Below, piece by piece: positions 1,416 to 21,051 of a DNA stretch of 54,369 nucleotides. Numbering within the stretch: the stretch's first letter is position 1; the number at the start of each line of letters is the position of its first letter. The notes beneath the pieces were generated by a model. That model was not told the DNA's origin. It saw nothing but the letters and a program-made list of their open reading frames with translations, and ran no database searches. Location of the stretch: contig NZ_JALVAO010000056.1 in the NCBI RefSeq assembly GCF_027011145.1, positions 1 to 54,369 of the forward strand, written 5' to 3'. Origin of the DNA: Thermococcus sp. (GTDB lineage: Archaea > Methanobacteriota_B > Thermococci > Thermococcales > Thermococcaceae). Made by a program: the position numbers and the translations under genes.

Positions 1416-1461
1416 CCAAAGTATATAAATACTCTTTCTCCCTTCTTTCTTAGGTGATGAC

Positions 1462-3344: not shown

Positions 3345-3349
3345 TGCCC

Positions 3350-5056: not shown

Positions 5057-5085
5057 CTTTTAAACTCTCCCTCCGACTTTTCTTC

Positions 5086-5379
5086 ATGCCGAAGCATTTC
5101 AAGAAAGGCGTCAAGCGGGAGCACCACTTCCTCAAGGGACTCGAGAAACCGCTCGAGGAGATAGCCCAGATTCCGGGTGTTAAGAAGGTAATCCCGGGAA
5201 GGATATACGCGAGCGATTCGAGGGGCTTCGAGATTAAGGTAACGCGGGAAACCCAAACGGGTTTAAAGCTCGTCGCCAAGAGTGACGGCTCCGTTCAGGA
5301 GGTTTTTCTCGTCGTGGATAAAAAGGACAGGGCTTGGGTTAAAGGGAGAATAGAGATGCTTTTCCGAAAGGGTGACTAG
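5086..5379 (+). CDS. DUF2103-like small predicted metal-binding protein
   Basis: A 97-residue protein beginning MPKHFKKGVKREHHFLKG, with a conserved-looking VKKVIPGRIY segment. This matches my recollection of the archaeal DUF2103 family, for which metal binding is only predicted. His4, His13 and His14 are candidate ligands. The C-terminal half looks like an alpha/beta domain, and the many Lys and Arg residues would also suit nucleic acid binding. A TTTTAAAC element lies about 25 bases before the ATG and there is no ribosome binding site, so it is probably a leaderless transcript. Its TAG stop overlaps the TAG of the next gene on the other strand (CTAG at 5376-5379). Confidence 0.6.
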   Translation: MPKHFKKGVKREHHFLKGLEKPLEEIAQIPGVKKVIPGRIYASDSRGFEIKVTRETQTGLKLVAKSDGSVQEVFLVVDKKDRAWVKGRIEMLFRKGD

Positions 5380-6005
5380 AGCTCCCTCTTGCCCTCGAAG
5401 AACTCGACTAACTCCTCGTCACTGATTTCCTCCTCGGTGTAGCCGAGCTCCCGCTTCTGGAGGTCTATCAGTCCCGGCGTTAGCAAAAGCTTTCCGTCAA
5501 GCTTCGGCACGGCGTAGTGGAGCGTTATCTCGCTGAACTCGTCCAGCTTAATCGTCGGGTTCTCCTCGTAGTCAATCTCCTCCAGCCTCCTTCCGTCCGC
5601 TATTAGCTTCGCCACTATGCTTGCACCATCTATCGAGAACTGGGGCTTTCCGATGTGCCTTACCTTGACCCCTTCCATCTTCGAGGTTATGAACTCCTTG
5701 GTTCTGCCCCTTGGGATAGCGTCGCCGAGGATTCCGCCGACGACTATTATCGTGTCCTCCTCGATGTCCTCGGGCCTGAGCTCCTCCTCCGCCTGGAGGT
5801 CGAGGACTATTATCTTCGAGCGGTCGAAGGGAAAGCGCGTGACGCTTTCACCTATGACGCTCCCAAGCTTCGCGAGCCTCTCCCTTTCCTCCGGCAGAAC
5901 GTTCGTGAAAATAAGCCTATCCCCCCACCACTCGCTCACGTGCTTGTACTCCAGCCAGAGCCAGTCGCTTATCTCCTCGAGGTGCTCGATTACCAGGTAC
6001 GGCAT
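5376..6005 (-). CDS. SFM1/DUF431-type SPOUT methyltransferase
   Basis: A 209-residue protein with the hallmark GGILGD...PRGRTKE segment of the DUF431 SPOUT methyltransferases. It opens with YLVIEHLEEISDWLWLEY, which resembles the start of yeast Sfm1, the arginine methyltransferase of ribosomal protein uS3. A SAM-dependent protein (or RNA) methyltransferase of the knotted fold is therefore the best call; the substrate in archaea is inferred only by analogy. The start ATG follows GGTGGGAGC. It is divergent from the methyltransferase gene at 6061, and both may use the symmetric TTTTTAAAA element in the 55-base gap. Confidence 0.75.
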   Translation of the reverse strand: MPYLVIEHLEEISDWLWLEYKHVSEWWGDRLIFTNVLPEERERLAKLGSVIGESVTRFPFDRSKIIVLDLQAEEELRPEDIEEDTIIVVGGILGDAIPRGRTKEFITSKMEGVKVRHIGKPQFSIDGASIVAKLIADGRRLEEIDYEENPTIKLDEFSEITLHYAVPKLDGKLLLTPGLIDLQKRELGYTEEEISDEELVEFFEGKREL

Positions 6006-6032
6006 GCTCCCACCGTCGGGCGTTGGGTGAGG

Positions 6033-6042
6033 TTTTTAAAAG
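6033..6042. promoter_or_regulatory. Symmetric TATA element shared by divergent genes
   Basis: The 55-base gap between the SPOUT methyltransferase gene (start 6005, leftward) and the class I methyltransferase gene (start 6061, rightward) contains one AT-rich element, TTTTTAAAAG. Read from either strand it is a good archaeal TATA box. It lies roughly 22-28 bases from both start codons, so one box could serve both directions with leaderless or very short-leader transcripts. This is an inference from position and symmetry. Confidence 0.5.
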
Positions 6043-6060
6043 CCCTGCGGTAGTTCCTCC

Positions 6061-6672
6061 ATGTCGTTCCGCGAGAAGTACGCGAGGCTCGCCAGATACT
6101 ACGATGTCTTAGAAAGGCCCCTCGACAGGTTCTTCTGCCCGCTCAGGAGGAAGGCCATCTCCTTCATCGAGGGGAAGAGAATCCTTGAGGTTGGCGTCGG
6201 CGTTGGCAAGACGCTGAAATACTACCCGGGGGACGTTGAGCTCTGCGGGATTGATGCTGTTCCAGAGGCCCTTGTGATAGCTGAAAAGAAGGCCAAAGCG
6301 CTGGGTCTGAACGCATGTTTCATGGAGGCCGACGTTGAGGAGCTTCCCTTTCCAGATAAAAGCTTTGACACCGTTGTTTCTTCCTTCGTCTTCTGCACGG
6401 TTCCCAATCCCGAGAGGGGAATGATGGAAATCCTCCGCGTCCTGAAACCCGGCGGAAGGGCGATTTTCCTCGAGCACACGAGGAGTGACTCAAGGCTTAT
6501 CAACTACCTCTTCCTCTGGCCGATGAAACTGATACTCAAGCCCCTCCTGGGGGACGACCCCCTCCGCGAGACCCACAGACTTGTTGCCAGATACTTTGAA
6601 ATTGAGAGGGAAGAAAGCCATTACAGGGGAATCGTGCGTTTGATTGTCGCAAGGAAGTCCTTCGGAGAGTAA
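6061..6672 (+). CDS. Class I SAM-dependent methyltransferase (UbiE/Methyltransf_11 type)
   Basis: A 203-residue Rossmann-fold methyltransferase. Motif I is ILEVGVGVGKTLKYY, the acidic loop is CGIDAVPEAL, the post-I segment is EADVEELPFPDKSFDTVVSSFVFC, and LKPGGRAIFLEHTR follows. The C-terminal part contains hydrophobic residues (NYLFLWPMKLILKPLL) that may contact a lipid-like substrate or a membrane. The substrate cannot be assigned; lipid or quinone-like acceptors and small molecules are all possible. There is no clear ribosome binding site, and the TATA-like element about 22-25 bases upstream suggests a leaderless message. It ends just before tRNA-Gly. Confidence 0.8.
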   Translation: MSFREKYARLARYYDVLERPLDRFFCPLRRKAISFIEGKRILEVGVGVGKTLKYYPGDVELCGIDAVPEALVIAEKKAKALGLNACFMEADVEELPFPDKSFDTVVSSFVFCTVPNPERGMMEILRVLKPGGRAIFLEHTRSDSRLINYLFLWPMKLILKPLLGDDPLRETHRLVARYFEIEREESHYRGIVRLIVARKSFGE

Positions 6673-6710
6673 AACTTTTAAAGTGCTCTCCCCCTAAGAT
6701 TAACGGGTGT

Positions 6711-6788
6711 GCGGTGGTAGTCTAGCCTGGTCTAGGACACCGGCCTCCCAAGCCGGTGACCCGGGTTCAAATCCCGGCCACCGCACCA
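6711..6788 (+). tRNA. tRNA-Gly (anticodon CCC), CCA encoded
   Basis: The sequence folds as a cloverleaf. The acceptor stem GCGGTGG pairs with CCACCGC, followed by A73 and an encoded CCA. The anticodon stem CCGGC/GCCGG encloses the loop CTCCCAA with anticodon CCC at 6747-6749. The T arm contains GGTTCAAATCC. A CTTTTAAAG promoter element lies about 25-40 bases upstream. The gene sits at the left edge of the AT-rich sugar block, but I saw no duplicate of its 3' end at the block's other edge. Confidence 0.97.
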
Positions 6789-6907
6789 GTTCTTGCCTGC
6801 AAAAAACTCGTTGTTCTTCTAATCTCTGCAAACTTCAAAGTTAAGTTGTTTGTTTGAGACCTAAAAACTTTTAACCTTCTTTGCTATGTTAAGCTATGGT
6901 GTTTACA

Positions 6908-7396
6908 ATGAAGAGTTTTCTCACAGAACAACAAATTAAGATTCTCAGTCTCCGCGCGAAGGGTCTCAAACAGAGTGAGATCGCTGAACTTCTTGGCACG
7001 AGCAGGGCTAACATAAGCATACTAGAAAGAAGGGCTCTCGAGAAGATAGAAAAAGCCAAGAATACTCTCTTGATCTGGGAGCAGATCAATTCGAAAGTAA
7101 GCATAAGCGTCAAGAGGGGGGACGACATATTTGAAATACCTAAACGACTCTTTGAAAAAGCTGATAGACTCGGTGTTAAGGTTCCTTATAGTACTGCGGA
7201 GATAATAGCTTTTCTCGTTGAACATGCACCTGTGGAGGACAGACTTGTGAAGAGGAACTTTACTCTATTTCTCGATACCAATGACCGCCTTAGGGTAAGT
7301 GAGTGTATCTTAGATGATTTTGAGGAAATAAGGAAGAACAAGAGCAGTGTAGATGCCGTTAAGAGCCATAGCAAGCCCACTTACCGCTCCAGCTAG
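6908..7396 (+). CDS. Tfx-family DNA-binding transcriptional regulator
   Basis: The N-terminal helix-turn-helix reads LTEQQIKILSLRAKGLKQ, then SEIAELLGTSRANISILERRA, typical of archaeal Tfx regulators. A C-terminal domain of unknown ligand follows; the protein is 162 residues long. ATG at 6896 is also in frame. The 6908 ATG is preferred because GGTGTT precedes it and family members usually begin near MKSFL. CTTTTAACC at 6868-6876 is the promoter and predicts a very short leader. The last 29 codons overlap the lrgB coding region on the opposite strand, so the tail (SSVDAVKSHSKPTYRSS) may not be native to the family. The target genes are unknown. Confidence 0.8.
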   Translation: MKSFLTEQQIKILSLRAKGLKQSEIAELLGTSRANISILERRALEKIEKAKNTLLIWEQINSKVSISVKRGDDIFEIPKRLFEKADRLGVKVPYSTAEIIAFLVEHAPVEDRLVKRNFTLFLDTNDRLRVSECILDDFEEIRKNKSSVDAVKSHSKPTYRSS

Positions 7397-7981
7397 CTCG
7401 TCCTCTGCTATTATCCTCGCTGTTCCAAGACCGTGGGAGCTTACACCTGTTGCTAAGCCCCTTGCAATTCGGTCCTTTATTCCAAAAAAGCTCAAAAGTT
7501 CTGGCGCAAAAGCGTTGCCAAGCAGACCCGTTGTTATTACGAGAACTGCAGTCAAAGAGGGTATCCCACCAACCTTGGCGCTTATCCCTATTGCTATGGC
7601 AGTAGTAACGCTTTTTGGAGCTATGCTTTTTAAGACAACGTCACTAGCGCCGAGAAGTTTTGCTATCCAATATGCGCTCAATATGGCTACGGTTCCTCCG
7701 AAGATTATTCCCAAGGTTATTTCCTTTGAGTATTGGAATATAAGCTCTCTGTTTTTGTACACTGGGACGGCTAAGCTCACCACAGCAGGTCCTAGTAAAA
7801 GTTTCAGGAAGACTGCACTTTCCATATATGAGTCGTATGAAAAGTCAAAAATCTTGAGGACTAATGCTATTACAACTATCGACAGCAGGACGGGGTTGGT
7901 GTAGAACACTTTCCTTCTTTCGTGAACTTCTGAGAATATGTAGAAGGTTATTATGGTTAGAGCTATCCCATATGGATTCAT
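7310..7981 (-). CDS. lrgB: LrgB/CidB-family membrane protein
   Basis: A 223-residue hydrophobic protein with about six to seven membrane segments and the LrgB signature region SVTTAIAIGISAKVGG...LTAVLVITTGLLGN, plus GVSSHGLGTARI near the C-terminus. It forms a unit with LrgA, whose stop it overlaps by 4 bases (ATGA). In bacteria LrgAB was first linked to autolysis, but Bacillus and plastid homologues transport pyruvate or glycolate/glycerate. A small-carboxylate transporter is therefore the more plausible role in an archaeon without murein. It is the last leftward gene of the sugar block, and its 3' end overlaps the Tfx gene by 87 bases. Confidence 0.88.
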   Translation of the reverse strand: MNPYGIALTIITFYIFSEVHERRKVFYTNPVLLSIVVIALVLKIFDFSYDSYMESAVFLKLLLGPAVVSLAVPVYKNRELIFQYSKEITLGIIFGGTVAILSAYWIAKLLGASDVVLKSIAPKSVTTAIAIGISAKVGGIPSLTAVLVITTGLLGNAFAPELLSFFGIKDRIARGLATGVSSHGLGTARIIAEDELAGAVSGLAMALNGIYTALVLPYFLKII

Positions 7982-8325
7982 TTCCTAGCGACCTCCACAA
8001 TCTTTGCTGTGATGAGAAGTGTGACTGTGAAGCTAACAACAAGTGCTATGGATATTGGCAAGAGTTGGGATTCTATGAGGGTTAGATAAGTTACTATCCC
8101 AACTCCGGGGGGAACGAAGAAAATACTCATGTTCTTTACAAAGAGCTCGGCTTCGCTCTCAACCCACTCAATCTGTATTCCACCATTGAACAGAGCAAGG
8201 AGCAAAAGTAACATTCCAACAACACTTCCGGGAATGGGTAGTCTAAGGGTCGAGCTAATGAATTCTCCTAGGGCATAGAACCCAAATATTATTGCCATTC
8301 CTCTGTATGGTTTCAAGGACGTCAT
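7978..8325 (-). CDS. lrgA: LrgA/CidA-family holin-like membrane protein
   Basis: A 115-residue protein with four predicted membrane segments and the family segment LPIPGSVVGMLLLLLAL, followed by FFVPPGVGIVTY. It is the small partner of LrgB. A second in-frame ATG at 8298 (MAIIFG) is possible. The ATG at 8325 lies about 26 bases below a TATAT element at 8347-8355 and lacks a ribosome binding site, so a separate leaderless lrgAB transcript is likely in addition to any readthrough from the isomerase gene. LrgA and LrgB probably act as one transporter; the substrate is unknown. Confidence 0.85.
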   Translation of the reverse strand: MTSLKPYRGMAIIFGFYALGEFISSTLRLPIPGSVVGMLLLLLALFNGGIQIEWVESEAELFVKNMSIFFVPPGVGIVTYLTLIESQLLPISIALVVSFTVTLLITAKIVEVARK

Positions 8326-8346
8326 AGAAAGAACTAGGTGTTTGAA

Positions 8347-8355
8347 ATATAAAAA
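8347..8355 (-). promoter_or_regulatory. Candidate lrgAB promoter (TATA box)
   Basis: On the minus strand the sequence reads TTTTTATAT directly after the stop codon of the isomerase-like gene. Its centre is about 26 bases before the lrgA start codon, the distance expected for an archaeal leaderless promoter. This would let lrgAB be expressed apart from the upstream sugar genes. Confidence 0.45.
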
Positions 8356-9816
8356 TCATAGTTCCTCGAGGAACGTCTTAACATCTATCCTGTCATTAAG
8401 GTTTACTGCTTTAATTCCCCATAGTCTTGCTATAAACTTAATCTCTTCCCTGTAGTCCCCCGGCACTGCCGAGAGATGGTTTGCTCCCATGACTGTTATG
8501 AACAATTCTTTGTTGAGAGGATTCTTGATAGCGGTATGAGGCCACTGTTTTCCCCAGAGAAGCTTGTTTTCTATATCCTCTCCAATTTCAACACCTTCTC
8601 CGAGAAAGTAGAGTAAGTAGTACCTACCGCCTCTCCGGATAAGTCTTGCGATGGTGAAAGTTGCAGGGGGTGTGCGATAGCCTAAAGCCGCTCCGCTCTT
8701 ACCCTGACATTGCCCCCTTAGAGTTGTTGCACGTAGGTTTTCCTCGGGGTCTTCACTAAGCTTTGCGTAGTAGAGGGAAGATGCGCCACAGTTTGCTATA
8801 ATTACGATATTGTCATCTACGTATTTAATATCTCCAAAGAGTGGTGGCTTTCCACTGAGGAGGTAGAGTACTGACGAACTTATCGTGCCTTTGATATCCC
8901 CCTCACATGTCGCTGGGATTACTGGTTTTTCACCTTCACCATCTAATGGGAACGGAAGGAAAGCTGGGATAAAACAGGCTGTTGTCCCGTAAACTTCGCT
9001 CAGTTCTGGTTGACACTTTATTGAAACACCGACAATGTTCTCGTTGATCAGCCTCTTTGTAGCGAGATAGAGTCTTATCTGTCTCTTTAAGCTCTCTGGA
9101 GTTAACATTTTCCCATCGAATTCGACATTCGTTTTTGAAATCAGCCATGAATAAAAACTTTCCACGATATCGTCCTCAATGTTTTCAGCGTTCTTAATGA
9201 TAAGGTATTGATCCAGCATAAGGAAGTCTCCGATCAGTCTTTTTATCCTTGGAATATCGTCCATGAGATGTTCCATTCCAAGGGTGTATGGTGATCCGAA
9301 CAGAACAATCTTGGATCTTGACAGCTTTTTAACAGCTTCAACAGCCCTGGCCCAAGATTTCACTTTCTCTGTGTCCCCCTTTAATCTAGAATGTCTCAGA
9401 GCGTATTCGTTTACGGCACTTTCCCACAGCGACGCCCCCACAGATGTTATGCATGTACTCCCAGCCCAAGCGGGATCATCGTCTGCATACAGGAGAATTG
9501 GCATATTGGCTTCCCTTACAAAGGCCGTTATGAGGTTGCTCTCCGTCCAGTGCCAGAGGCCAAATATTACCCCGGAGGCGCCTTTAGATGATGCTATGCT
9601 TGCAGCCTTTATGCTTTCTTCCATCGAGTCTATTCCGAAGTTCCCTCCTTTTTCGAGTATCTCGTACTTTCCTAGTTCTTTGTTTATATCCAAAACTTCA
9701 AAACCTGAGTCCTGTAGAGTGCGGATCAACTGCAAGTGCTTGTTTTTTAGTGCTTTTTCTCTCTCGATGGCAAGCGATGTTGGTCTGGGGTCTGTATAAG
9801 TTGCAACCGCGAGCAT
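8356..9816 (-). CDS. L-fucose/L-arabinose isomerase-family protein
   Basis: The 486-residue protein belongs to the COG2407-type group of fucose/arabinose isomerases. It has an N-terminal alpha/beta region (GVIFGLWHWTESNL; LLYADDDPAWAGSTC) and a C-terminal FucI-like barrel (GQCQGKSGAALGYRTPP...FTIARLIRRGG...YYLLYFLGEG). Such enzymes convert an aldose to a ketose using a divalent metal. The exact sugar cannot be read from sequence, and catalysis is not certain because this group contains non-canonical members. It follows the MalK-like gene by 10 bases, with GAGGTGG before the ATG. Paired with the PfkB kinase on the other arm of the cluster, an isomerise-then-phosphorylate route is a reasonable inference. 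Confidence 0.75.
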   Translation of the reverse strand: MLAVATYTDPRPTSLAIEREKALKNKHLQLIRTLQDSGFEVLDINKELGKYEILEKGGNFGIDSMEESIKAASIASSKGASGVIFGLWHWTESNLITAFVREANMPILLYADDDPAWAGSTCITSVGASLWESAVNEYALRHSRLKGDTEKVKSWARAVEAVKKLSRSKIVLFGSPYTLGMEHLMDDIPRIKRLIGDFLMLDQYLIIKNAENIEDDIVESFYSWLISKTNVEFDGKMLTPESLKRQIRLYLATKRLINENIVGVSIKCQPELSEVYGTTACFIPAFLPFPLDGEGEKPVIPATCEGDIKGTISSSVLYLLSGKPPLFGDIKYVDDNIVIIANCGASSLYYAKLSEDPEENLRATTLRGQCQGKSGAALGYRTPPATFTIARLIRRGGRYYLLYFLGEGVEIGEDIENKLLWGKQWPHTAIKNPLNKELFITVMGANHLSAVPGDYREEIKFIARLWGIKAVNLNDRIDVKTFLEEL

Positions 9817-9826
9817 TCATGCCACC

Positions 9827-10933
9827 TCAAAATATTGCATCTCCACTTTCCCTAAATAAGTGTGCCTTCCTGATGTTGAGAACCAGCTTTATTTTAGAGC
9901 CCTCCCTTGCTTTCGATTCTGGTGGAAGTGAAGCTGTGAGGGAATGCTCACCTATTGAAACGTGAACTATCTTTTCGTTTCCTAGGTTTTCAAGTATTTC
10001 GACACGGCCAACTACTGTGTTTTCCTCGTCTTGAATTGGCGACAATTCAGCGTCATAAATATCTTCGGGGCGGATACCCAAGGTCAGTGTTTTTCCCACG
10101 TAATCCTTTGAAATTTCAAACTGATCAGGAGTTAATCGGAGTAAAAACTCTCCAAAGTCCATTCTACCGTCTTCAAGAAGGGTTCCCTTAAGGAAATTCA
10201 TTGGAGGTGTTCCTATAAAACCTGCAACAAACGTGTTTGAAGGCTTGTTGTAGACTTCTTCCGGCGTTCCGACTTGTTGAAGGACACCAATGTTTATAAC
10301 TGCAATTCTGTCTCCCATTGTCATGGCCTCAACTTGGTCATGTGTAACATAGATTGTAGTTACTCCCAGTTGTTTTTGAAGTTTCTTCAATTCAGCGCGC
10401 ATTTTTACTCTAAGTTTTGCATCTAAGTTGCTTAGAGGTTCATCCATTAGAAAGACTTGGGGTTTCCTTATTATTGCCCTCCCAAGCGCAACTCTTTGTC
10501 TCTGTCCCCCGCTTAACTCCCTCGGTTTTCTCTTAAGGAGTTCGGTTAGTCCAAGGAGTTCCGCAACCTCTCTGACCCTCCTGTCTATTTCATTCTTTGG
10601 AACCTTCCTAAGTTTGAGGGGGAAGGCTATGTTGTCATAAACTGTCATGTGAGGATAAAGGGCATAGCTCTGAAAGACCATGGCGATGTCCCTATCTTTG
10701 GGTGGAACGAATACATCTTTTTCTGGATCGGCTACAAGTCGATCTCCTATGTATATTTGGCCTCGGGTTGGTTCCTCTAGACCTGCAATCATTCTCAGGG
10801 TTGTTGTTTTTCCGCACCCACTTGGTCCTAGGAGAATCATAAATTCCCCATCTTTGACCTCCAATGTCATGTTTTTAACAGCTACAACATTATCAAACTC
10901 TTTCCAAACGTTTATAAGGCGAACACCGGCCAT
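9827..10933 (-). CDS. Sugar ABC transporter ATP-binding protein (MalK/UgpC type)
   Basis: A 368-residue CUT1-family ATPase. Visible motifs are Walker A GPSGCGKTT, signature LSGGQRQRVALGRA, Walker B VFLMDEPLSNLDA and the switch YVTHDQVEAM. A C-terminal OB-type regulatory domain of about 130 residues follows (LGIRPEDIYDAEL). The frame is open further upstream to 11008, but ATG at 10933 after GAGGTGTTTATC gives the standard MAGVRLINVWKEF start. It energises the two permeases encoded on the opposite arm of the cluster. It lies 10 bases after trmB, the same trmB-malK order as in the trehalose/maltose operon of Thermococcus litoralis. Confidence 0.93.
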   Translation of the reverse strand: MAGVRLINVWKEFDNVVAVKNMTLEVKDGEFMILLGPSGCGKTTTLRMIAGLEEPTRGQIYIGDRLVADPEKDVFVPPKDRDIAMVFQSYALYPHMTVYDNIAFPLKLRKVPKNEIDRRVREVAELLGLTELLKRKPRELSGGQRQRVALGRAIIRKPQVFLMDEPLSNLDAKLRVKMRAELKKLQKQLGVTTIYVTHDQVEAMTMGDRIAVINIGVLQQVGTPEEVYNKPSNTFVAGFIGTPPMNFLKGTLLEDGRMDFGEFLLRLTPDQFEISKDYVGKTLTLGIRPEDIYDAELSPIQDEENTVVGRVEILENLGNEKIVHVSIGEHSLTASLPPESKAREGSKIKLVLNIRKAHLFRESGDAIF

Positions 10934-10943
10934 GATAAACACC

Positions 10944-11963
10944 TCAGTCCAATATAAGCCGAATTTTTGTTGTTTCGTAATCCTCAAGAACTGCAAACAT
11001 GCCCCCAACTTTCACTATTTTGCCGTTGGTTTTTAAATCAAAATTATCAACGCCCTCCTCAAGTAATACGGTGTAGCCAACTACTTCCCCTGCAAGGGTC
11101 TCTATTTCGTTTGTTGCAAGGTTTCTTCCAATTACCTCAGCGTATATTCTCTTTTTGGGAAGGTATCTCTTTATGATATCAACAGCATGAAACGTTGTAA
11201 AAAACCTAATGTCGTTCTTTCTTTTTATGTCCTCTAAAATGAGTTCCGATTCCTTAAACGCTTCCCTTACAAAGGCGTATTGAGCAAAGATTATTTCGGG
11301 ATACGTTGCTTTAAAACTAGGGGGATTCCGAGGTCTTAAACCGATATTCTGGATATCTATAACTTCTTTTCCATCGAACATCCCTATAAAATGGTTGAGT
11401 TTGTGGAAACGCCGTATGAATAGGTTACCTTTTTTTCGCAATCCATTTAGAGATGTATCTCCTCCGGTATAGAGGGATAACGTAACTCCTCTTAACAGAG
11501 CTTTTTCTAAGTCTCTTTGTATCTTTTCTAAAAACTTCTCAGGGGCTACAAGAATTATCTCGTACTTGCTGTTTTCTATGGACTCTTTAACCATCTCAAT
11601 GGCTTCTTCTATATCTGTCGTACGCCATATAGCCGGTCTTTCTTGATCTTTTCTTTTTGACTTTGAGAGTTCTTCTTCGAATAATTTCTGGAGATCATCT
11701 ATTTCATTTTTTAAGCGCATAAATGATATAGCTGGAGAAAACGCTGCATAAACCCTTGGTGTTCCCTCAACTTCTGTAACAAAACCTCTCGCTTTGAGTG
11801 TAGTTACCGTATCGTAAACTCTATTGTATGGAATTCCACTTTCCTCTGAAATTTCCCTGGCTGTACTTGGTCCATTTACAAGAAGGGTCCAATAAGTTAA
11901 AACTTCATATTTAGTAAAGCCGAGCCTTGCCATTGCCCTCATGATTTTGTCGCTTGGTCCCAC
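10944..11963 (-). CDS. trmB: TrmB-family sugar-responsive transcriptional regulator
   Basis: This 339-residue protein has an N-terminal winged helix (FTKYEVLTYWTLL, NGPSTAREISEESGIPYNRVYDTV). A coiled linker, the RPAIWR segment and a C-terminal sugar-binding domain follow (KLNHFIGMFDGKEVIDIQN, PPSFKATYPEIIFAQY, VKVGGMFAVLEDYE). Length and motifs fit TrmB of T. litoralis and Pyrococcus closely, where it represses maltose/trehalose transporter operons and is released by sugar. It starts with GTG after GAGGAGGGTG. ATG at 11942 is an alternative. As the first leftward gene, facing the transporter operon across a shared control region, it probably regulates both arms. Whether it is TrmB itself or a paralogue needs phylogeny. 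Confidence 0.9.
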   Translation of the reverse strand: MGPSDKIMRAMARLGFTKYEVLTYWTLLVNGPSTAREISEESGIPYNRVYDTVTTLKARGFVTEVEGTPRVYAAFSPAISFMRLKNEIDDLQKLFEEELSKSKRKDQERPAIWRTTDIEEAIEMVKESIENSKYEIILVAPEKFLEKIQRDLEKALLRGVTLSLYTGGDTSLNGLRKKGNLFIRRFHKLNHFIGMFDGKEVIDIQNIGLRPRNPPSFKATYPEIIFAQYAFVREAFKESELILEDIKRKNDIRFFTTFHAVDIIKRYLPKKRIYAEVIGRNLATNEIETLAGEVVGYTVLLEEGVDNFDLKTNGKIVKVGGMFAVLEDYETTKIRLILD

Positions 11964-12205
11964 TTGTAAACACCCTCCTCATTTTGGAATGTCTCCCTAC
12001 ATTAGGTTTACTTTCTTGTTTGCTTTTGTATATACTTTTAGTAAACAATATGGGAAAATAATATATAAACATTTCTTTTTTGGTCTCCTCTTATTGATAC
12101 GCTAATGTTCTATTATGTCTTTTAAACATCGACTTTTGCCGGAATCCAAAAACTATATATATACCAAAAGTAAATACAGCATGAAAATTATTTGGGGGCT
12201 TCCTC
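11964..12205. promoter_or_regulatory. Divergent control region of the sugar regulon
   Basis: This 242-base AT-rich gap separates trmB (leftward) from the sugar-binding protein gene (rightward). Rightward, ACTATATATATACC at 12152-12165 is a strong TATA box about 45 bases before the ATG at 12206. Leftward, TATATAC-like boxes lie near 12026-12036 and 12058-12071. A perfect 11-base palindrome, TACTTTTAGTA, sits at 12033-12043. The pattern TATAC-N4-AGTAAAYA occurs at 12031-12047 and again at 12160-12176, each over or next to a TATA box, and GTTTACT at 12006-12012 is an inverted half-site. These are candidate TrmB operators; the TACT/AGTA half-sites recall the operator described for T. litoralis TrmB. 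No gene was found in the gap. Confidence 0.6.
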
Positions 12206-13537
12206 ATGGGTAGGAAAACCTTGAGTATTGCAATGGCTTTTGTTGTTTTACTTGCCGTTGTTGCGGCTGGGTGTATCACAGGTTCAACAACATCTAGTTC
12301 TTCAGCGAGTTCCACAGGTTCTCCGACAACAACAGTTTCCCCCACAACTTCCCAGCAAAAACAGGTTACCGTTGTTATATACGGCCAGTGGGGTGGCGTT
12401 GAGGGCCAGAACTTCGAGAGTGCCCTAAAGGTATATGAGCAGGAGCATCCTAACGTCAAGATAAAGTACGTTGTTCAGTCCAAGCTTAGGGACGCTGTTC
12501 TTACTGAACTTGCTACTGGCTCACCGTCCTTTGACATTGCGATTCTCCCGTGGCCCGCCCTTATAAAGGAATTAGGTCAAAAGGGTCAGCTTGAGCCTCT
12601 AAACAGTATCGTTAGTTACTACAACGGAGAAATTCAAAAAGATCTTCTTAACATGGTTAAGGTCGGGGACACTTACTATGCAATTCCCATAAAAGCTTGG
12701 GCAAAACCAGGAATATGGTATAACGTTCACGATTTTGAGAAGTATAATTTGACACCACCAAAGACCCTCGATCAACTTAAGCAGGACTGTAAGGTGTTTG
12801 AAGAACACGGAATACAGCCTATGGCTAGTGGCGCAGCCGATAAGTGGCCACTCTCAGACATCTTTGAAGCGGTTCTCATCAGAATAGGAGGTCCACAACT
12901 CCACAACGATTTAATGCTCCACAAGGTTAAATGGACTGATCCTCGTGTTCTTGAGGCCTTTAAGATACTTCGCGACCTTATAAAGGAAGGCTGCTACGGT
13001 AACCCCCAGACGGCCATAGGTGAAAAATGGGAAGCCCAAGTTCCAAGGCTCGCCAACGGCCAGGTGGCCATGTACTTTATGGGCAACTGGATTGTTCTCA
13101 TGCTTGAGAAAGAAGGAGCCAAACCGGGAACCGACTTTGGACTGATACCGTTCCCAGTCATAAATCAGAGCGCCAAGTTCGCCATTGTTGCAGGTGGAGA
13201 CTGGGTGGTTATTCCAAAGAACGCCCCACACAAAGAAGCTGCCATGGAGCTCGCTAAGTGGCTCGCCGGACCGCAGTATCAAGAGATCATGGTCAAAAAG
13301 AAAGGCTACCTCGCCCCTAACCTCAAGGTTCCTCTTAGTGCCTACGATCCGATGGACGCTAAGGTAGTTGAATGGATGAAGGAGTATGGTATTGTACCTG
13401 ATCTCGATGACAACGCACCACCGGGGTTCCAGCCCATAATCTGGAACAAGCTCTTTGAGTTCTGGGCTAATCCTGACAATTACAAGCAGATAGCCGAACA
13501 GCTTGAGCAGTATGCTGAGCAGTACTACAAATCATGA
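12206..13537 (+). CDS. Sugar ABC transporter substrate-binding lipoprotein
   Basis: A 443-residue extracellular binding protein of the CUT1 (MalE-like) class. A signal peptide ends in a lipobox AAGC with Cys23. A Ser/Thr-rich linker of about 25 residues follows, as is common and often glycosylated in Thermococcales. The bilobed domain has VTVVIYGQWGG at its start and GQVAMYFMGNWIV in the second lobe. It should capture an oligosaccharide outside the cell for the permeases that follow. ATG 12206 is preceded by TTGGGGGC, about 23 bases downstream of the predicted transcription start. It is the first gene of the rightward arm; ligand identity is unknown. Confidence 0.92.
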   Translation: MGRKTLSIAMAFVVLLAVVAAGCITGSTTSSSSASSTGSPTTTVSPTTSQQKQVTVVIYGQWGGVEGQNFESALKVYEQEHPNVKIKYVVQSKLRDAVLTELATGSPSFDIAILPWPALIKELGQKGQLEPLNSIVSYYNGEIQKDLLNMVKVGDTYYAIPIKAWAKPGIWYNVHDFEKYNLTPPKTLDQLKQDCKVFEEHGIQPMASGAADKWPLSDIFEAVLIRIGGPQLHNDLMLHKVKWTDPRVLEAFKILRDLIKEGCYGNPQTAIGEKWEAQVPRLANGQVAMYFMGNWIVLMLEKEGAKPGTDFGLIPFPVINQSAKFAIVAGGDWVVIPKNAPHKEAAMELAKWLAGPQYQEIMVKKKGYLAPNLKVPLSAYDPMDAKVVEWMKEYGIVPDLDDNAPPGFQPIIWNKLFEFWANPDNYKQIAEQLEQYAEQYYKS

Positions 13538-13548
13538 GGTGAAAAGGA

Positions 13549-14436
13549 ATGGGCGGAAGGAGATGGTTGACTAAAGATTTCTTTATCCTGATGACGCCCG
13601 CTTTTGTACTTCTTTTAGTTTTTATCATATATCCTCTGTTTAACACATTTTATCTCAGCTTTACACATTGGGATGGAATGACGTCTCCAAAATTCGTTGG
13701 GCTCGCAAACTACCGAGAGATGATTCATGATCAGCTATTTTGGACGTCTGTTAAAAACAACTTCTTTATCTTCATAGTGTTTCTCCCCCTTGTTACTATC
13801 ATAGGGTTGGGTTTTGCAGTTCTTCTTCATAATAAAGCTGTAGTTGGGAGAAACGTTCTTAGAGGTCTTGTAATGCTTGGCATGGTTATGCCTATGACCG
13901 TTGTTGGTATTGTCTGGATGCTACTTCTTGATCCTCATGCTGGAATCGTGAATAAGATTCTTGAAATGGTTGGTGTTGCTCCTAGGGCATGGATACAAGA
14001 TCCTTCAACTGCTATTTACTTTGTCATAATAGGTTCTCTCTGGGCGTGGCAAGGCTTCACAACAACGGTTTTTCTTGCAGGACTTGAGGGATTGGACGTT
14101 GAAGTTCTCGAAGCCGCGTGGATTGATGGGGCTAACGCTTGGCAGAGATTTAGATATGTTATTCTGCCTCTATTGAAGCCCGCTCTAATAGTTGTTGTCA
14201 CGATGAGTGCAATCTATATTCTTAAGGTATTTGATCTTATCTACGTGCTCTCGGGCGGAGAGTCCGTTCCAATGTATTTGTTTGTGCTGGCGTACATAGT
14301 TTACTACGAGATCTTCTACAACTTCCGGTGGGGTTATGCTGCTGCCATAGCGACACTGCTCACAGTCTCGGTCTTTGTGTTCTCACTGGGAATGTTGAAA
14401 AGAATGATAAGTGAGAGGGGTGTTGAGAGTGGTTAA
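13549..14436 (+). CDS. Sugar ABC transporter permease (MalF type)
   Basis: A 295-residue integral membrane protein with six predicted segments. The cytoplasmic EAA loop EAAWIDGANAWQRFRYVILP contacts the ATPase. It follows the binding protein gene by 11 bases with GAGGTGAAAAGGA before the ATG, and overlaps the next permease gene. Together with the second permease and the MalK-like ATPase encoded at 9827-10933 it forms a CUT1 importer for oligosaccharides or glycosides. Confidence 0.93.
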   Translation: MGGRRWLTKDFFILMTPAFVLLLVFIIYPLFNTFYLSFTHWDGMTSPKFVGLANYREMIHDQLFWTSVKNNFFIFIVFLPLVTIIGLGFAVLLHNKAVVGRNVLRGLVMLGMVMPMTVVGIVWMLLLDPHAGIVNKILEMVGVAPRAWIQDPSTAIYFVIIGSLWAWQGFTTTVFLAGLEGLDVEVLEAAWIDGANAWQRFRYVILPLLKPALIVVVTMSAIYILKVFDLIYVLSGGESVPMYLFVLAYIVYYEIFYNFRWGYAAAIATLLTVSVFVFSLGMLKRMISERGVESG

Positions 14437-15253
14437 GGTTAGCACAAGGTACAAGGTCTCTATAAACCTAGTAGCTTGGTTGATCGGAGTAATCCTTTTT
14501 ATACCTCTCCTTGCGTTGATTATGGCATCGGTCAGACCATTCGCGGAGATTGTCAATGGATGGTGGAATCTTCACAATGCCCATTTCACGCTCGTGAATT
14601 ACAAACAGGTTTGGGATGCTGGTTTCTGGAGGTATATTCTTAATTCTCTTCTTATTGCAACCTTTGCAACGATCTTACCAATTCTTATAGCGGGCATGGC
14701 TGCATATGGTTTTACGTCCTTCAGTTTTCCAGTTAAGACTTTACTCTTTCTAACGCTTGTTGCTATTCAGGTCGTTCCTCAGCAGGCAGTTATAGTCCCC
14801 CTTCTTAAGCTCTTCAGGGATCTCCATATGTACAACCAATACTATGGGATAATCCTCGTTCATTCAACTTTCGCACTTCCATGGACGATCTTTTTCCTCC
14901 GTAATTTCTTCAAAGCGATTCCTAAGGACTATGAGGAAGCTGCAAGAATAGATGGTCTTGGCGACGTTGGAATATATTTTAGAATCATACTTCCTATCGC
15001 ACTTCCTGCAGTGATAAGCGTGGCAGTTGTTCAGTTTATCTTTGTCTGGCAAGACCTGTTCTTTGCACTAACTCTGCTTCGTCCAGACAAGTGGCCGGTC
15101 TCAGCTGGAGTCACGACTTTTATAAGTCGCTATAATCCCAACTGGGGTCAGTTAACAGCTGCAGGGACTCTCTCAATAATAGTCCCAATACTTGTGTACG
15201 TGTTGCTTCAGAAATATTACATGAAAGGTGTTACTGGGGGAATCAAAGGATGA
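14411..15253 (+). CDS. Sugar ABC transporter permease (MalG type)
   Basis: A protein of up to 280 residues with six membrane segments and the EAA loop EEAARIDGLGDVGIYFRIILP. It is the second half of the CUT1 translocation pore. The start is ambiguous: GTG codons at 14411, 14420 and 14429 are all in frame. The last has GAGGGGTG as a well-placed ribosome binding site, so the true N-terminus may be six residues shorter. The gene overlaps the upstream permease gene, and its stop overlaps the ATG of the glycosidase gene (ATGA), a sign of translational coupling. Confidence 0.92.
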   Translation: MRGVLRVVKVSTRYKVSINLVAWLIGVILFIPLLALIMASVRPFAEIVNGWWNLHNAHFTLVNYKQVWDAGFWRYILNSLLIATFATILPILIAGMAAYGFTSFSFPVKTLLFLTLVAIQVVPQQAVIVPLLKLFRDLHMYNQYYGIILVHSTFALPWTIFFLRNFFKAIPKDYEEAARIDGLGDVGIYFRIILPIALPAVISVAVVQFIFVWQDLFFALTLLRPDKWPVSAGVTTFISRYNPNWGQLTAAGTLSIIVPILVYVLLQKYYMKGVTGGIKG

Positions 15254-16449
15254 GTGAGGATTTTTTATTAGGCGTGAACTACTGGCCGAGGACGAAGGCT
15301 ATGTACTGGTGGAAGGCCTTTGACAAAAATGAAGTTTATGAGGATTTCACTAGTATAAGGGATATTGGACTCAAGCTTGTTAGGATTTTTCTTCTCTGGG
15401 AAGATTTTCAGCCAAAACCGGAAATTGTTTCTGATTCTGCTCTCTCAAATCTCGGTACCGTTCTTGACATAGCAGACGAGCTTGGACTTAAAGTGATCCC
15501 CACGTTCTTTGTGGGACATATGAGTGGAGTTAACTGGCTTCCTCCGTGGTTGCTTTCGGACAAGCCCCATGAAAGGTTCCTGACGTATTCCAATGGAAGG
15601 CTTGTTGATCTAGGGGCAACCAACATATATGAAGATCCAGCCGTACTAGAAGCTGAAAAACTTCTAGTTGAGACTGTTGGGCGAGAGTTCTCCTCCCACA
15701 AAGCCATTCATAGCTGGGATATTTCAAATGAGATTGATAACGTTTTAATCCCAAGAACACCCGAAGTTGCCCTGAAGTGGCTTTCATTCATCTATGAAAC
15801 TCTTAAAGAGGTTTCCTCCAAGCCGATAACGTTTGGAGTACACCAAGAAGACATTGAGGGGGATAAACATTTTCGCATTCCGGATATAGCGCCATGGAAC
15901 GACTATCTCTGTATGCACGCTTACTCGGTCTACTCTGGATTTACCAATCCCCTAGATCCATATTTTGTTCCTTTTGCATGTGTGCTCACTAGGGAACTTG
16001 GAAATAAAGAAGTGCTTATGGAAGAGTTTGGGATGCCAACAACACAGGAGAAAACAAAAAGAATTCGCTCAGCAACGGGAAAAGAAATAAGATTTCACTA
16101 TCTAATAAACGAGAGAGAGGCCTCCACATGGCTCGAAAAGACAGTAAGACTTTTGCAAATCTTTGGATGCATGGGGGCAGTTTATTGGAACTTTTCTGAC
16201 TACCATCCAAGTCTGTGGCAGAAGCCTCCTTTTGATCGAGCAATTCACGAGAGGTTCTTTGGTCTTTTCAGAAGTGACGGAACACCAAAATCTCTAGTGT
16301 TCGTTCTTAAAAGGCTAAGCGAGGATCCAGACCCTCCCCAAAGAATTGAACCCAATCTTAATGTCCCAGAGAACTATTATTCAAATCCAAAGGAAAACTT
16401 AAAGCTACTTTACGCCCAGTTCAGGGAGGCAGTAGGTGATGACATATGA
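15250..16449 (+). CDS. Intracellular clan GH-A glycoside hydrolase (endo-mannanase/GH5-like)
   Basis: The 399-residue protein has no signal peptide, so it acts inside the cell on imported sugar. Features of the (beta/alpha)8 clan GH-A retaining glycosidases are visible. VRIFLLWEDFQP is an early strand, WDISNEID carries the Asn-Glu pair expected for the acid/base, HAYSVY is an active-site strand, and VLMEEFGMPT carries the expected nucleophile Glu. The overall style resembles COG3934 beta-mannanase-like enzymes, but linkage and sugar cannot be assigned. It overlaps the permease stop (ATGA) and the kinase start (ATGA), so hydrolysis is translationally tied to uptake and phosphorylation. Confidence 0.78.
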   Translation: MSEDFLLGVNYWPRTKAMYWWKAFDKNEVYEDFTSIRDIGLKLVRIFLLWEDFQPKPEIVSDSALSNLGTVLDIADELGLKVIPTFFVGHMSGVNWLPPWLLSDKPHERFLTYSNGRLVDLGATNIYEDPAVLEAEKLLVETVGREFSSHKAIHSWDISNEIDNVLIPRTPEVALKWLSFIYETLKEVSSKPITFGVHQEDIEGDKHFRIPDIAPWNDYLCMHAYSVYSGFTNPLDPYFVPFACVLTRELGNKEVLMEEFGMPTTQEKTKRIRSATGKEIRFHYLINEREASTWLEKTVRLLQIFGCMGAVYWNFSDYHPSLWQKPPFDRAIHERFFGLFRSDGTPKSLVFVLKRLSEDPDPPQRIEPNLNVPENYYSNPKENLKLLYAQFREAVGDDI

Positions 16450-17390
16450 TAGTGAGCGTAGGTGAAGTCTTAATCGATATGATAGCGCTTGAAGACAAGC
16501 CGCTGGCCATGGTTGAGAGATTTGAGAGACATCCAGGAGGGGCCCCCGCAAACGTTGCGGTGGGCCTCTCTAGACTTAACGTTGAGAGCGTTCTCATAAG
16601 TAAGGTCGGAAGAGACCCATTCGGTGAGTTTCTCGCTAGATCATTGGAAAAAGAAGGTGTAAAGGCCGTCCTTTCTGTAGATGAACAAAGACATACTGGG
16701 GTCGTTTTTGTTCAGCTTATCGGGGCAAAACCCGAGTTTATTCTCTATGACGGTGTTGCTTACTTCAACCTCAGGGAAGATGAGATCCCCCTTGAGATCC
16801 TCATGAATTCAGGGGCAGTTCACTTTGGAACAGTCATGTTTGCCCGGGAACCCTCTAGGAGTGCTGTCTTCAAAGTCATTGAGAATCTCAAAGGGAAGAC
16901 TACCCTCAGCTATGACGTTAACATAAGGCTAGATCTCTGGAAGGGTCGTGAGGAGGAGATGCTTAAGGACATAAAGAGGGCCTTGGGGCTAGCGGACATA
17001 GTTAAACTCGGTTGGGAAGAATACAGATACCTTGCGGAGAAAGGAATAAACGTCGAGGATTTCAGCGCGAAGCTTATAGCCATAACACTAGGCTCAAAGG
17101 GTTCCATGCTGATTTCTATGGAAGAGAGAGTGGAAGTTCCTCCTTTAAAGGTTGAGGCCGTGGACACCACGGGGGCGGGCGATGCATTTATGGCAGGTCT
17201 TCTGGCAGCACTTTATTATTCTGGATCCCTGAAAGCTGGAAAATTCGAGAAGGATCTTCTCTGGAAGATTGGAAAATTTGCTAACCTCGTGGCTGGACTG
17301 TCTGTCACTAGAAGGGGTGCATGGAGCGTTCCAAGACTTGATGATATAAAAACGACTCCTGAATTCAAGGCCCTTAGGGGGAGGATCTGA
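16446..17390 (+). CDS. PfkB-family sugar kinase
   Basis: A 314-residue ribokinase/fructokinase-type enzyme. The N-terminal GGAPANVAVGLSRL is PfkB signature 1, and VDTTGAGDAFMAGLL is signature 2 with the catalytic Asp and anion hole. YDVNIRLDLW matches the fructokinase-like middle segment. It should phosphorylate a monosaccharide with ATP (or ADP). Given the isomerase-like gene in the same cluster, a ketose substrate is likely, but this is inference. The start ATG overlaps the glycosidase stop by four bases and has GGTGATGACAT upstream. The next gene follows after 3 bases. Confidence 0.9.
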   Translation: MIVSVGEVLIDMIALEDKPLAMVERFERHPGGAPANVAVGLSRLNVESVLISKVGRDPFGEFLARSLEKEGVKAVLSVDEQRHTGVVFVQLIGAKPEFILYDGVAYFNLREDEIPLEILMNSGAVHFGTVMFAREPSRSAVFKVIENLKGKTTLSYDVNIRLDLWKGREEEMLKDIKRALGLADIVKLGWEEYRYLAEKGINVEDFSAKLIAITLGSKGSMLISMEERVEVPPLKVEAVDTTGAGDAFMAGLLAALYYSGSLKAGKFEKDLLWKIGKFANLVAGLSVTRRGAWSVPRLDDIKTTPEFKALRGRI

Positions 17391-17393
17391 CTA

Positions 17394-18818
17394 ATGCACC
17401 TCCCGAATTGGTCTTTTCCAGGGCGATACGGGCCAGAATGGGGAAGCGGAGGTATATTTGGACTTAAGTACCACAATGGGGTTCTATATTTTACTCTAGC
17501 TTTTGAAGCTGAATCTCACTTTATCGAACTAAAAAGTGGGGACGAAAACGTTTACTCGTTTACTATGATAGGACAAGCTCCCAGAAGTGGTGGTGACACC
17601 TACAACGCCGTTGAGACTGTTGATGAATTTATATACTTCGGTGGCTGGGTTCATGCTCCCGCTAGATACCTCAAAGGCAGAATCAGTTTTGTGAATAAAT
17701 ATTCCCACGTTCACGTTTATGATACCGAGAACCAAGAAGTGAAGCTCATATGGAAGGACTCCATACATCAAACAACCCAATGGGCAGGAGAAGTTGGTGA
17801 TATCCTGTATGATCCCTATAATGACAGGCTTCTACTAGCTAGAGAGGACGGACATGCTAATCTTGGAGTTTACTCCCTAGACAGGCACAGCGGAAAAACG
17901 AAAAGACTCTTAGAGGAGCCCTCACCAAAGGGAACTTTAGTTCATGATGTGGCGGTTTTCGGCATTGGAAGTAATTTTTCCGGGGGAGTTGAAGAATTCG
18001 GGGTATTAGACCTTGAAACCCACAAATGGGAGTTTTTAAAGCCCGGTAAAAGCCTCGATTCGAGACCTGTGGAGAGGCCCGAACTGGGTTGCATGGCCAG
18101 CGCTTATAACAGGGTATTTGCTTTTGTTAGGGGAGGATTTTTTGTTGGAAGCCCCTTTTTAGAGGAGGAATTCACCTTTTACCGCCTCTTTGATTTTCCT
18201 ACATTCTACGCGCCCTTTAGGGTTAATGCGCTTAACGTCGGTGGGGGAATCTTAACTGCCTACAACTCTTATCATGACGTTTCGTTCGAAAACGTTAGAT
18301 GGGGCAAGTTCACTCATCTCGTTGCCGGACCGAGCGTTCTCCTATACATAATCCCTCCGATGGTGAAGATAGTGGGAACCTTCGGAGCGAGGGTGACCAG
18401 TATCGAGAAAGTGGGTGGGAAGCTACTCATCGCGACTAACAATGCCTCAAACACAGGAGCAACTGAGGCAACGCCCTTTGATACCGGAAACAGGGACATA
18501 GTATTGCTTGATGAAAAAATCCTGGAGGAGAAACCGCCTGTGGTTAGCTTCTCCTCTCCCCTCCCCAATGGCAGACCCTTTGGAGGAATCCCCCTTGATG
18601 GTTATCGTAGACCCAGAATAATCTTCTACCTCAAGGGGGACAACCGGCTGACTGTCTACGAATACGATGTCTCAACGTCCCCATTAGAACCATCAGTTGA
18701 GCATATTGAGCTCGTGGAAGGTAAAAATGTTATTCCTCTCGATTCTTTTTCTGGAATAGTGAGTTTTGAATTGGAAAAAAGCGATTCAGAGGGAAAGTTC
18801 AAAATCGACCTGCGCTGA
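17394..18818 (+). CDS. DUF2139-like predicted beta-propeller protein of the sugar cluster
   Basis: A 474-residue protein that I do not recognise as a known enzyme. It begins with RYGPEWGSGGIFGLKYHNG, resembling the archaeal DUF2139 family. It is made of repeated short beta-strand blocks ending in W, Y or F, such as GVLYFTLAF, FIYFGGWVHAP, DRLLLAREDGHANL, KLLIATNNASNTG. That suggests a beta-propeller. There is no signal peptide and no membrane segment, so it is cytoplasmic. It starts 3 bases after the kinase stop, behind GGGGGAGGATC, so it belongs to the sugar operon. A glycosidase, phosphorylase, lactonase or epimerase-like role would fit, but none is shown. It ends one base before the convergent gene at 18820. 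Confidence 0.65.
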   Translation: MHLPNWSFPGRYGPEWGSGGIFGLKYHNGVLYFTLAFEAESHFIELKSGDENVYSFTMIGQAPRSGGDTYNAVETVDEFIYFGGWVHAPARYLKGRISFVNKYSHVHVYDTENQEVKLIWKDSIHQTTQWAGEVGDILYDPYNDRLLLAREDGHANLGVYSLDRHSGKTKRLLEEPSPKGTLVHDVAVFGIGSNFSGGVEEFGVLDLETHKWEFLKPGKSLDSRPVERPELGCMASAYNRVFAFVRGGFFVGSPFLEEEFTFYRLFDFPTFYAPFRVNALNVGGGILTAYNSYHDVSFENVRWGKFTHLVAGPSVLLYIIPPMVKIVGTFGARVTSIEKVGGKLLIATNNASNTGATEATPFDTGNRDIVLLDEKILEEKPPVVSFSSPLPNGRPFGGIPLDGYRRPRIIFYLKGDNRLTVYEYDVSTSPLEPSVEHIELVEGKNVIPLDSFSGIVSFELEKSDSEGKFKIDLR

Positions 18819-19129: not shown

Positions 19130-20905
19130 TCACACCTTCGTCTTTATCGTCCCAAAGTAGTCCTCGATGTCAATGTAAGTCTTCCTGTAGAGCTCGCTCT
19201 TCTTCATCTTCTCGACGAACTCCTTCGAGCGGAAGTACTTGTCGCTCCAGTAGTCCCAGTCAGGGTGGAGTTTCTTCCACTCCTCCCAGCTGTAGCTGAA
19301 CTGGGCCTGGACCTTGTCCCTGTAGAGCTCTGGAATCACGTTGAAGGTACAGAATGGCACCACCCTTCCGTCGGGCATCGCGTAGTGAATTACACAGCGC
19401 TCCACCCTTTCCACATCGTAGTTGTACTCGTCCATGAAGTGCATCATTCCGATGAAGAGTGCGTTCTCGTGGAACTTGCCGAGGGCGTCGTAGTTGCCGT
19501 GCATGAAGGCGTTCTTTATGAGGTCAAGGACCTTGAGACCCTTTGGAGCGTACCTGTCGTCGTAGAAGCTCCTGAACTTGAGGAATATCTCAGCTCCCAA
19601 TTTGAGCTTCTGGAGCTTGCCGAGCTTCTTCCACTGCTCTATCTCCTCGGCCTTCTCCTCGAGGTACTCAACGAAGCCCTCAACGTCAAGGAACCGGCTT
19701 ATCGGAATGACCCTCTTGTGTTCCCTGTCGAGGAAGATGTACGTTGCCGCGCCACAGCAGTAGTGGCTCGTCATGTAGTAGCGCGAACCAGTGAATGCCT
19801 CGAAGAAGCGCGCTATGTGGCCCGCTATCGGAATCGGGTACCAGTCGTTCATCTCTATGACGCCGTTGGTCTGTTCTTCAATCCTCTTTATGGCTCCCGG
19901 AATCGTTATCCTGAAGCGCTGGCGCTCCTTTTTCGGAACCCTTCCGACGAGGGAAATCGGCTGGAAGTTAACGCCCCTGACGATATCGAGGTGGTTCAGA
20001 CCGAAGTTGATTATCGCCCCAAGCTCGTGGTCGTTGATATTTCTTATGGTGGTTGGAACCAGAACTATTCCCGGCCCACCGGCCTTCCTCACGTTCTCGA
20101 AGATAAGTGGAATCTCCCAGTGGTTTTTCCAGTTGGTCTGTGGCGTCATTCCATCATAACTCAGGTAGAGAGTATTCGTTCCGGCCTCTCGGATTTTCTT
20201 TACAAGTTCGGGCTCAAAGGCGAGCTTTATCCCGTCCGTGTTGAGCTGAACGTGGTCGTAACCCTCTTCCTTGGCCATCTTAAGTATTTCAATGAGGTCA
20301 TCTCTGAGGGTCGGCTCACCGCCGGTGAACTGAACGGCGTTGGCTCCAATTGGATACTGCTTCTTGGCGTTGCGGAGCATCATCCTAATCTGCTCAAGCG
20401 TCGGCTCGTAAATCGGCTGGCCCTCCTTTGCGTAGAAGAAGCAGTACCAGCAAGAGAGATTACAGCGGTTGGTGAGAACTATATTGAGCAGGTTTGTATG
20501 GGAGCGATGCCTGGCACAGAGACCACAGTCAAAGGGACAGTTAACACCGGTGTTTTCAACGTTCACGCTCTTGAGCTTAAAATCGTACTTCCAGCGCTGG
20601 AAGCGGTAGTATTGCTCAACGCTCTCGTAGTAGAGGTCTGTTATCATTCCCTCGGGACAGCGTTTGGTTATCCAGACCTTACCGTCACTCTCCCATACCA
20701 AGGCGGGAACGACACGCCTCGTCTCGGGACAGAGTGAGTAGGTCCTGTGGGGAAGGGGCCCACCGTAAACCCTGCTCGCGTTTTTGAGCATGTTTTCAAA
20801 TTCTTCTTCACTTATTTCAGGGAACTCAACAATGTCCCTAAGCCTTCTCGTGAGCTGTTCAAACTCCTTTTCCCCGCTTGGTATCTCACCAACGTGCTCA
20901 GCCAT
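19130..20905 (-). CDS. tes: Radical SAM tetraether lipid synthase (Tes-like)
   Basis: A 591-residue radical SAM protein. The SAM-cluster motif CNLSCWYC uses Cys148, Cys152 and Cys155. Upstream are further cysteines, CPFDCGLC (123-130) and two near residues 59 and 83, which could bind extra iron centres. CC in HYCCGAA and a late Cys pair lie towards the C-terminus. FTGGEPTLRDDL follows the SAM motif. Domain order and length fit the tetraether synthase family (MJ0619-type), which joins two archaeol chains through their phytanyl ends to make GDGT membrane lipids. The start at 20905 follows GCGGTGAT; the open frame to 20980 runs into the promoter (CTTTTATACC near 20942-20952). A small gene is coupled downstream. 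Confidence 0.8.
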   Translation of the reverse strand: MAEHVGEIPSGEKEFEQLTRRLRDIVEFPEISEEEFENMLKNASRVYGGPLPHRTYSLCPETRRVVPALVWESDGKVWITKRCPEGMITDLYYESVEQYYRFQRWKYDFKLKSVNVENTGVNCPFDCGLCARHRSHTNLLNIVLTNRCNLSCWYCFFYAKEGQPIYEPTLEQIRMMLRNAKKQYPIGANAVQFTGGEPTLRDDLIEILKMAKEEGYDHVQLNTDGIKLAFEPELVKKIREAGTNTLYLSYDGMTPQTNWKNHWEIPLIFENVRKAGGPGIVLVPTTIRNINDHELGAIINFGLNHLDIVRGVNFQPISLVGRVPKKERQRFRITIPGAIKRIEEQTNGVIEMNDWYPIPIAGHIARFFEAFTGSRYYMTSHYCCGAATYIFLDREHKRVIPISRFLDVEGFVEYLEEKAEEIEQWKKLGKLQKLKLGAEIFLKFRSFYDDRYAPKGLKVLDLIKNAFMHGNYDALGKFHENALFIGMMHFMDEYNYDVERVERCVIHYAMPDGRVVPFCTFNVIPELYRDKVQAQFSYSWEEWKKLHPDWDYWSDKYFRSKEFVEKMKKSELYRKTYIDIEDYFGTIKTKV

Positions 20906-21051
20906 TTTTTCATCACCGCTACCCTTAATCCAACGGGAAGGTATAAAAGCTTTTGCGTAAATATGAAGATTTTCCTTCATAAGTATGACACAAATTTGGG
21001 CAATCGGGCTAAGGTTAAAAGCACTTCTTCGGAAGAGAAGGGGGTGGTTGA

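Follow-up and report, generated by a model that had tools for sequence, protein, structure and literature searches.

A sugar-uptake operon with a terminal DUF2139 gene

The window, i.e. the whole 54,369-nucleotide stretch of Thermococcus DNA that we analysed, contains a sugar-uptake operon whose final gene codes for a DUF2139 protein. Upstream of this gene and on the same, forward strand lie genes for a sugar ABC transporter binding protein, two permeases, a glycosidase and a PfkB sugar kinase. The binding protein (12206–13537) matches SBP_bac_1, and its nearest solved structure is the glucose-binding protein 2b3b. The permeases are of the MalF (13549–14436) and MalG (14411–15253) types; the latter was assigned from its open reading frame, which adjoins the MalF-type gene in an arrangement conserved in related operons. 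According to a phmmer search against solved structures, the Thermococcales glycosidase (15250–16449) is a predicted cytoplasmic TIM-barrel enzyme similar to GH5_18 and beta-mannosidase proteins; its Pfam match, to GH42, is weak. The kinase (16446–17390) is fructokinase-like, and its nearest solved structure is the uncharacterised kinase PH1459.

Divergent genes on the reverse strand code for a TrmB-type sugar-responsive regulator (10944–11963; PF11495 and PF01978, and NF040851 with 542 bits, under the cut-off of 600), a MalK-type ABC ATPase (9827–11008; ABC_tran, OB_MalK and TOBE) and a fucose-isomerase-like protein (8356–9816; PF02952, E=2.9e-13). The last of these is probably a sugar isomerase; in an operon that also codes for a fructokinase-like kinase, it is a candidate for aldose-ketose interconversion. 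The gene set suggests that a glycoside is imported, and then hydrolysed, isomerised and phosphorylated. The divergent promoter region (12020–12190) is AT-rich, with repeated ACTTT/AGTAAA elements that by eye resemble TrmB-type sites. Beyond the DUF2139 gene, the window codes for the tetraether lipid synthase Tes (19130–20980; 616 residues), whose best match is an intein-containing model, yet the window copy has no intein.

The DUF2139 gene (17394–18818, forward strand) begins with ATG and codes for 474 residues. The stop codon of the PfkB gene (17388–17390) leaves a 3-base gap, and the terminal part of that gene contains a good ribosome-binding site, GGAGG (17380–17384, forward strand), 9 bases ahead of the DUF2139 ATG. 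No hydrophobic stretch is seen in the N-terminus, MHLPNWSFPGRYGPEWGSGG, and thus no signal peptide is visible; the protein is predicted to be intracellular. The product matches PF09910 (DUF2139) with an E-value of 3.7e-139 and 464 bits, for a gathering cut-off of 25.9, over positions 1–339 of the 340 of the model. Thus, the size, the absence of a signal peptide, the spacing and the family membership given in the first-pass annotation were all borne out.

This family is already known as archaeal and devoid of characterised members. The NCBIfam models gave no match to the window protein. Sequence searches of solved structures, with the single protein or with profiles built from 21 or 34 relatives, yielded only noise, and no homologue of known function was found by sequence. 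Similarly, no relatives were found in the viral collection searched. A literature search on DUF2139, PF09910 and guessed Thermococcus kodakarensis locus tags returned nothing useful, and no paper in the library searched uses the term DUF2139.

Predicted fold and conserved residues

The repeated short beta blocks noticed in the protein are predicted to form a propeller. AlphaFold2 modelled the whole protein with 71 relatives at a pLDDT of 95 and a pTM of 0.94, and the propeller domain alone at 93.4 and 0.93, respectively. Counting the strand order in the DSSP assignments of these two models gave seven four-stranded blades over residues ~9–376 (17418–18521, forward strand), with the N-terminal strand 12–15 completing blade 7. 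In the whole-protein model, an eight-stranded C-terminal beta domain, a beta-sandwich, follows at residues ~384–473 (18543–18812, forward strand). This two-domain fold assignment is new for DUF2139, as a prediction. Foldseek retrieved many propellers, none of them close: the best TM-scores by query were ~0.54, with the seven-bladed Lp49 among these matches, and kelch and WD40 proteins predominated. A search of BFVD with the model gave only generic phage propellers, and the kelch repeat profile did not identify the family as kelch propellers, its best E-value being 0.028, in one of 34 members.

Several polar residues are conserved far beyond Thermococcus. D68, T69, W85, P89, K102, H105, H107, W130, E133, R150, D152, R276 and a GGxP motif are invariant over 34 sequences, down to 21% identity, and E15, S104, W120 and N291 are nearly so. 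In particular, relatives of 21–26% identity retain E15, D68, K102, H105, H107, E133, R150, D152 and R276. A near-invariant GGxPL motif is found in the C-terminal beta domain (residues 397–401). The 71-sequence set was collected using motifs at positions 65–72 and 76–83, and these columns are over-conserved in it; the divergent sequences come from a profile search and are free of this bias. The invariant set is a new description for the family.

Strands and loops were assigned according to standard propeller topology. Of the 29 conserved polar residues, 26 then lie on the side of the D-to-A and B-to-C loops, the top face, and 3 on the bottom (p=0.001, face size allowed for). For charged residues and histidines alone the bias is weaker (14 vs 2, p=0.06). 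Acidic residues of the predicted pore region, including E15, D68, E133 and D152, are assigned to top-face loops. The fold and the conserved carboxylates of one face, which had been proposed as checks of a propeller enzyme, are thus both predicted, and the carboxylates are kept in distant relatives.

Together with other operon-linked copies, the window copy forms a supported clade (99/92). The members of this clade share T64R, N253S, Y298F and N308H, as well as changes at positions 126, 135 and 215. Most of these changes lie in or beside top-face loops, with positions 64, 126, 298 and 308 in loops of the assigned active face. Such a pattern would fit an altered specificity, without amounting to proof of it.

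Distribution and genomic context of the family

A chance open reading frame is excluded, as 79 of the 94 Thermococcaceae genomes, and many other archaea besides, code for relatives of equal length. None of the 21 sister-family genomes has the gene, and a second archaeal phylum has it in ~41 of the 299 genomes. Most Thermococcus carry it as a solitary gene next to those for DUF3213 and Tes. The window-type glycosidase was found at 17 loci in 16 genomes, and the DUF2139 gene adjoins it at 8 of them, after PfkB in the window clade and in the order glycosidase-DUF2139-PfkB in genus g5. The remaining nine operons, otherwise similar, do not include it; two of these occupy the same DUF3213-Tes site. 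Each of the 16 glycosidase genomes nevertheless has a DUF2139 gene somewhere, a co-occurrence that is only suggestive (p=0.07). Since the gene is missing from 9 of 17 operons and present elsewhere in those genomes, its role appears to be broader than the operon. This modular relation between gene and operon is a new finding.

Two further observations concern the operons themselves. One locus (L034, contig C5 of genome G000, positions 1–13428) holds a second copy of the entire operon and two further DUF2139 genes; the DUF2139 copy at the operon end is almost identical to that of another Thermococcus genome (L046), and the locus may thus be a stray contig in this MAG rather than a true duplication. 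Sister operons (L184, L185, L187–L189 and similar) have, by eye, a TreT-like glycosyltransferase gene between those of the regulator and the binding protein; this gene is absent from the window clade operons.

We also looked for a link with sugars away from the operon. In the second phylum, SBP_bac_1 proteins (E≤1e-20) are coded in 27 of 32 genomes with DUF2139 vs 23 of 100 without (p=7e-10), an association still confounded by kinship even though 50 of the 100 negatives were taken beside positives in the genome listing. At the level of gene neighbourhoods, the main family outside Thermococcus shows no enrichment beside sugar ABC genes (2 observed vs 1.6 expected in an unbiased sample), and such adjacency was dropped as a rule for this family.

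A divergent DUF2139-like subfamily of the second phylum (L164–L173; Pfam E-values ~1e-30) carries the motifs GGDTHGA, KYSHIH and NHWYGEV. Its neighbours include genes for GH31, GH3, GH29 and GH12 proteins, glucose dehydrogenase, an MR_MLE dehydratase, an FGGY kinase and DHDPS-type aldolases. An SBP_bac_5 gene lies within 5 kb in 6 of its 11 genomes vs 0.6 expected, the kinship of these genomes being uncorrected. Both the association of DUF2139 with sugar importers and this subfamily are new.

Other sugar-related neighbours are a xylose-isomerase-like protein with PfkB (L176), GH1 (L070), TrmB with sugar ABC genes (L174, L175) and glycogen synthase or phosphorylase (L073; L095, L113, L114 and L129, in two lineages). 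Glycogen synthase was rejected as a general partner, as it is adjacent in two lineages only and is found in most Thermococcaceae regardless of DUF2139. Unrelated neighbours, such as HypD, TIP49, glutamine synthetase and aldehyde ferredoxin oxidoreductase, are common.

Proposed function and comparison with known systems

Our preferred interpretation, to which we give about as much credence as doubt, is that DUF2139 proteins are cytoplasmic propeller enzymes of carbohydrate metabolism; the predicted fold, the conservation, the distribution and the gene order are what was observed, and the activity, the class of substrate and the roles of the residues are what we infer. This interpretation is favoured by the high-confidence propeller, the polar residues of one face with a core kept down to 21–26% identity, the lack of a signal peptide, the genome-level link with sugar ABC transporters, the sugar-related neighbours of the divergent subfamily and of some other members, and the presence of DUF2139 in all 16 glycosidase genomes. 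Against it stand the absence of a close fold or of a homologue of known function, the lack of enrichment beside sugar ABC genes in the main family outside Thermococcus and the many unrelated neighbours.

In such an enzyme, the active site would lie on the face of the D-to-A and B-to-C loops, centred on blades 2–3 with D68, K102, H105, H107, E133, R150 and D152, while blades 5–6 would contribute R276 and N291. The mouth of the pore would bind a small sugar, a glycoside or a sugar phosphate. Acid-base chemistry could be provided by invariant carboxylates, E133 together with D152 or D68, and K102, H105, R150 and R276 could hold a phosphate or another anion; hence, we would guess at a reaction of glycosides that is hydrolytic or uses phosphate. 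Such chemistry would be in keeping with a glycoside hydrolase or phosphorylase of the single-displacement type, or with some other reaction on a phosphorylated sugar. These putative roles are drawn from residue types and predicted positions. In the window lineage, the protein would have joined an operon for sugar import, hydrolysis, isomerisation and phosphorylation; several residues are altered in this lineage (T64R, H126, N308H and others), mostly within or next to loops of that face, and the core is kept.

The proposal of the first-pass annotation that operon position argues for a cytoplasmic step of sugar breakdown is thus partly supported: the observation itself was confirmed, and the cytoplasmic location and the carbohydrate link stand, but most DUF2139 genes lie outside the operon and nine of the 17 operons do without one. 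A new glycosidase or phosphorylase is possible. More tentatively, DUF2139 and its divergent branch may form a new seven-bladed carbohydrate-active family, glycoside phosphorylases or hydrolases or sugar-phosphate enzymes, that archaeal sugar catabolism as currently drawn up does not include; the operon-linked clade would then have adapted to one particular glycoside that is imported.

Alternatively, the protein might be a non-catalytic propeller that binds sugars or metabolites and serves sugar enzymes as a sensor, chaperone or scaffold. Many propellers act as binding platforms, the leading kelch and WD40 fold matches agree with this, the highly varied gene neighbours would suit a partner protein, and there is an additional beta-sandwich domain. 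However, invariant D, E, H, K and R residues in pore-facing loops that persist at such low identity are more typical of catalysis, and co-conservation of the kind expected for a partner was not found; we thus regard this role as rather unlikely.

It is more improbable that DUF2139 is a housekeeping protein without any role in sugar metabolism, placed in the operon by positional chance at the DUF3213-Tes locus. This would account for the usual solitary gene at that locus, for the operons that lack it and for the unrelated neighbours elsewhere, and a search for the TGM glycolytic-regulator motif upstream of DUF2139 gave only overlaps with ribosome-binding sites, at few loci. It agrees poorly with the excess of sugar ABC transporters in DUF2139 genomes, the sugar clusters of the divergent subfamily and, in genus g5, the gene's place between glycosidase and kinase.

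An enzyme of sugar lactones or sugar acids, acting in the manner of SMP-30 or 6-phosphogluconolactonase, appears about as improbable. SMP-30 has a six-bladed propeller. DUF2139 shares with SMP-30/gluconolactonase and Drp35 a propeller fold, Drp35 being in the fold list, and divergent members are coded close to sugar-acid genes: glucose dehydrogenase, MR_MLE dehydratase and a DHDPS-type aldolase in L164, and such aldolases in L169 and L172. In contrast, the strand count gives seven blades, the SMP-30 profile PF08450 (SGL) matched 1 of 34 members with an E-value of 0.11, at noise level, and PF10282 did not match. Moreover, a sugar dehydrogenase is lacking from the Thermococcus operon, whose isomerase and kinase suggest sugar phosphates.

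If DUF2139 is indeed an enzyme, as we favour, archaeal sugar metabolism includes an unrecognised step. Although 79 of 94 Thermococcaceae and many archaea that import sugars maintain the family, Pfam assigns it no function. The predicted fold, the invariant residues, the operon-linked clade and the sugar-linked divergent subfamily provide concrete targets for assays and knock-outs.

As for the five propeller families of glycoside hydrolases to which kinship had been suggested, GH32, GH43, GH62 and GH68 are five-bladed. The same holds for GH130 (PMC8950772, PMC4599007). True membership of DUF2139 in any of the five is contradicted by blade count and profiles, and extremely improbable: despite the shared propeller fold, conserved carboxylates and sugar context, the two AlphaFold2 models have seven blades by strand count, the Pfam profiles of these families found no match in 34 relatives with E-values up to 0.5, and the GH43 structures in the whole-protein Foldseek list have TM-scores of at most ~0.37 and rmsd values of 12–21, and are absent from the best 50 matches of the propeller alone.

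Propellers of the YncE/Lp49 type are periplasmic or surface proteins. They (3vh0, 3bws) resemble DUF2139 in having seven blades and are among the highest TM-scores (0.44–0.54), but they share only ~11–13% identity with it and have other conserved residues. In the arrangement of its genes for the binding protein, the permeases, TrmB and MalK, the operon resembles the Thermococcus trehalose/maltose cluster (malEFG-treT-trmB-malK), and the TreT-like gene of the sister operons is a further likeness; in contrast, the operon also codes for a glycosidase, a fructokinase-like kinase, an isomerase and DUF2139, and its binding protein is closer to glucose-binding proteins. Finally, the window protein has the length and motifs of the PF09910 family as a whole, and differs from it as a member of the operon-linked clade with changes specific to that clade.
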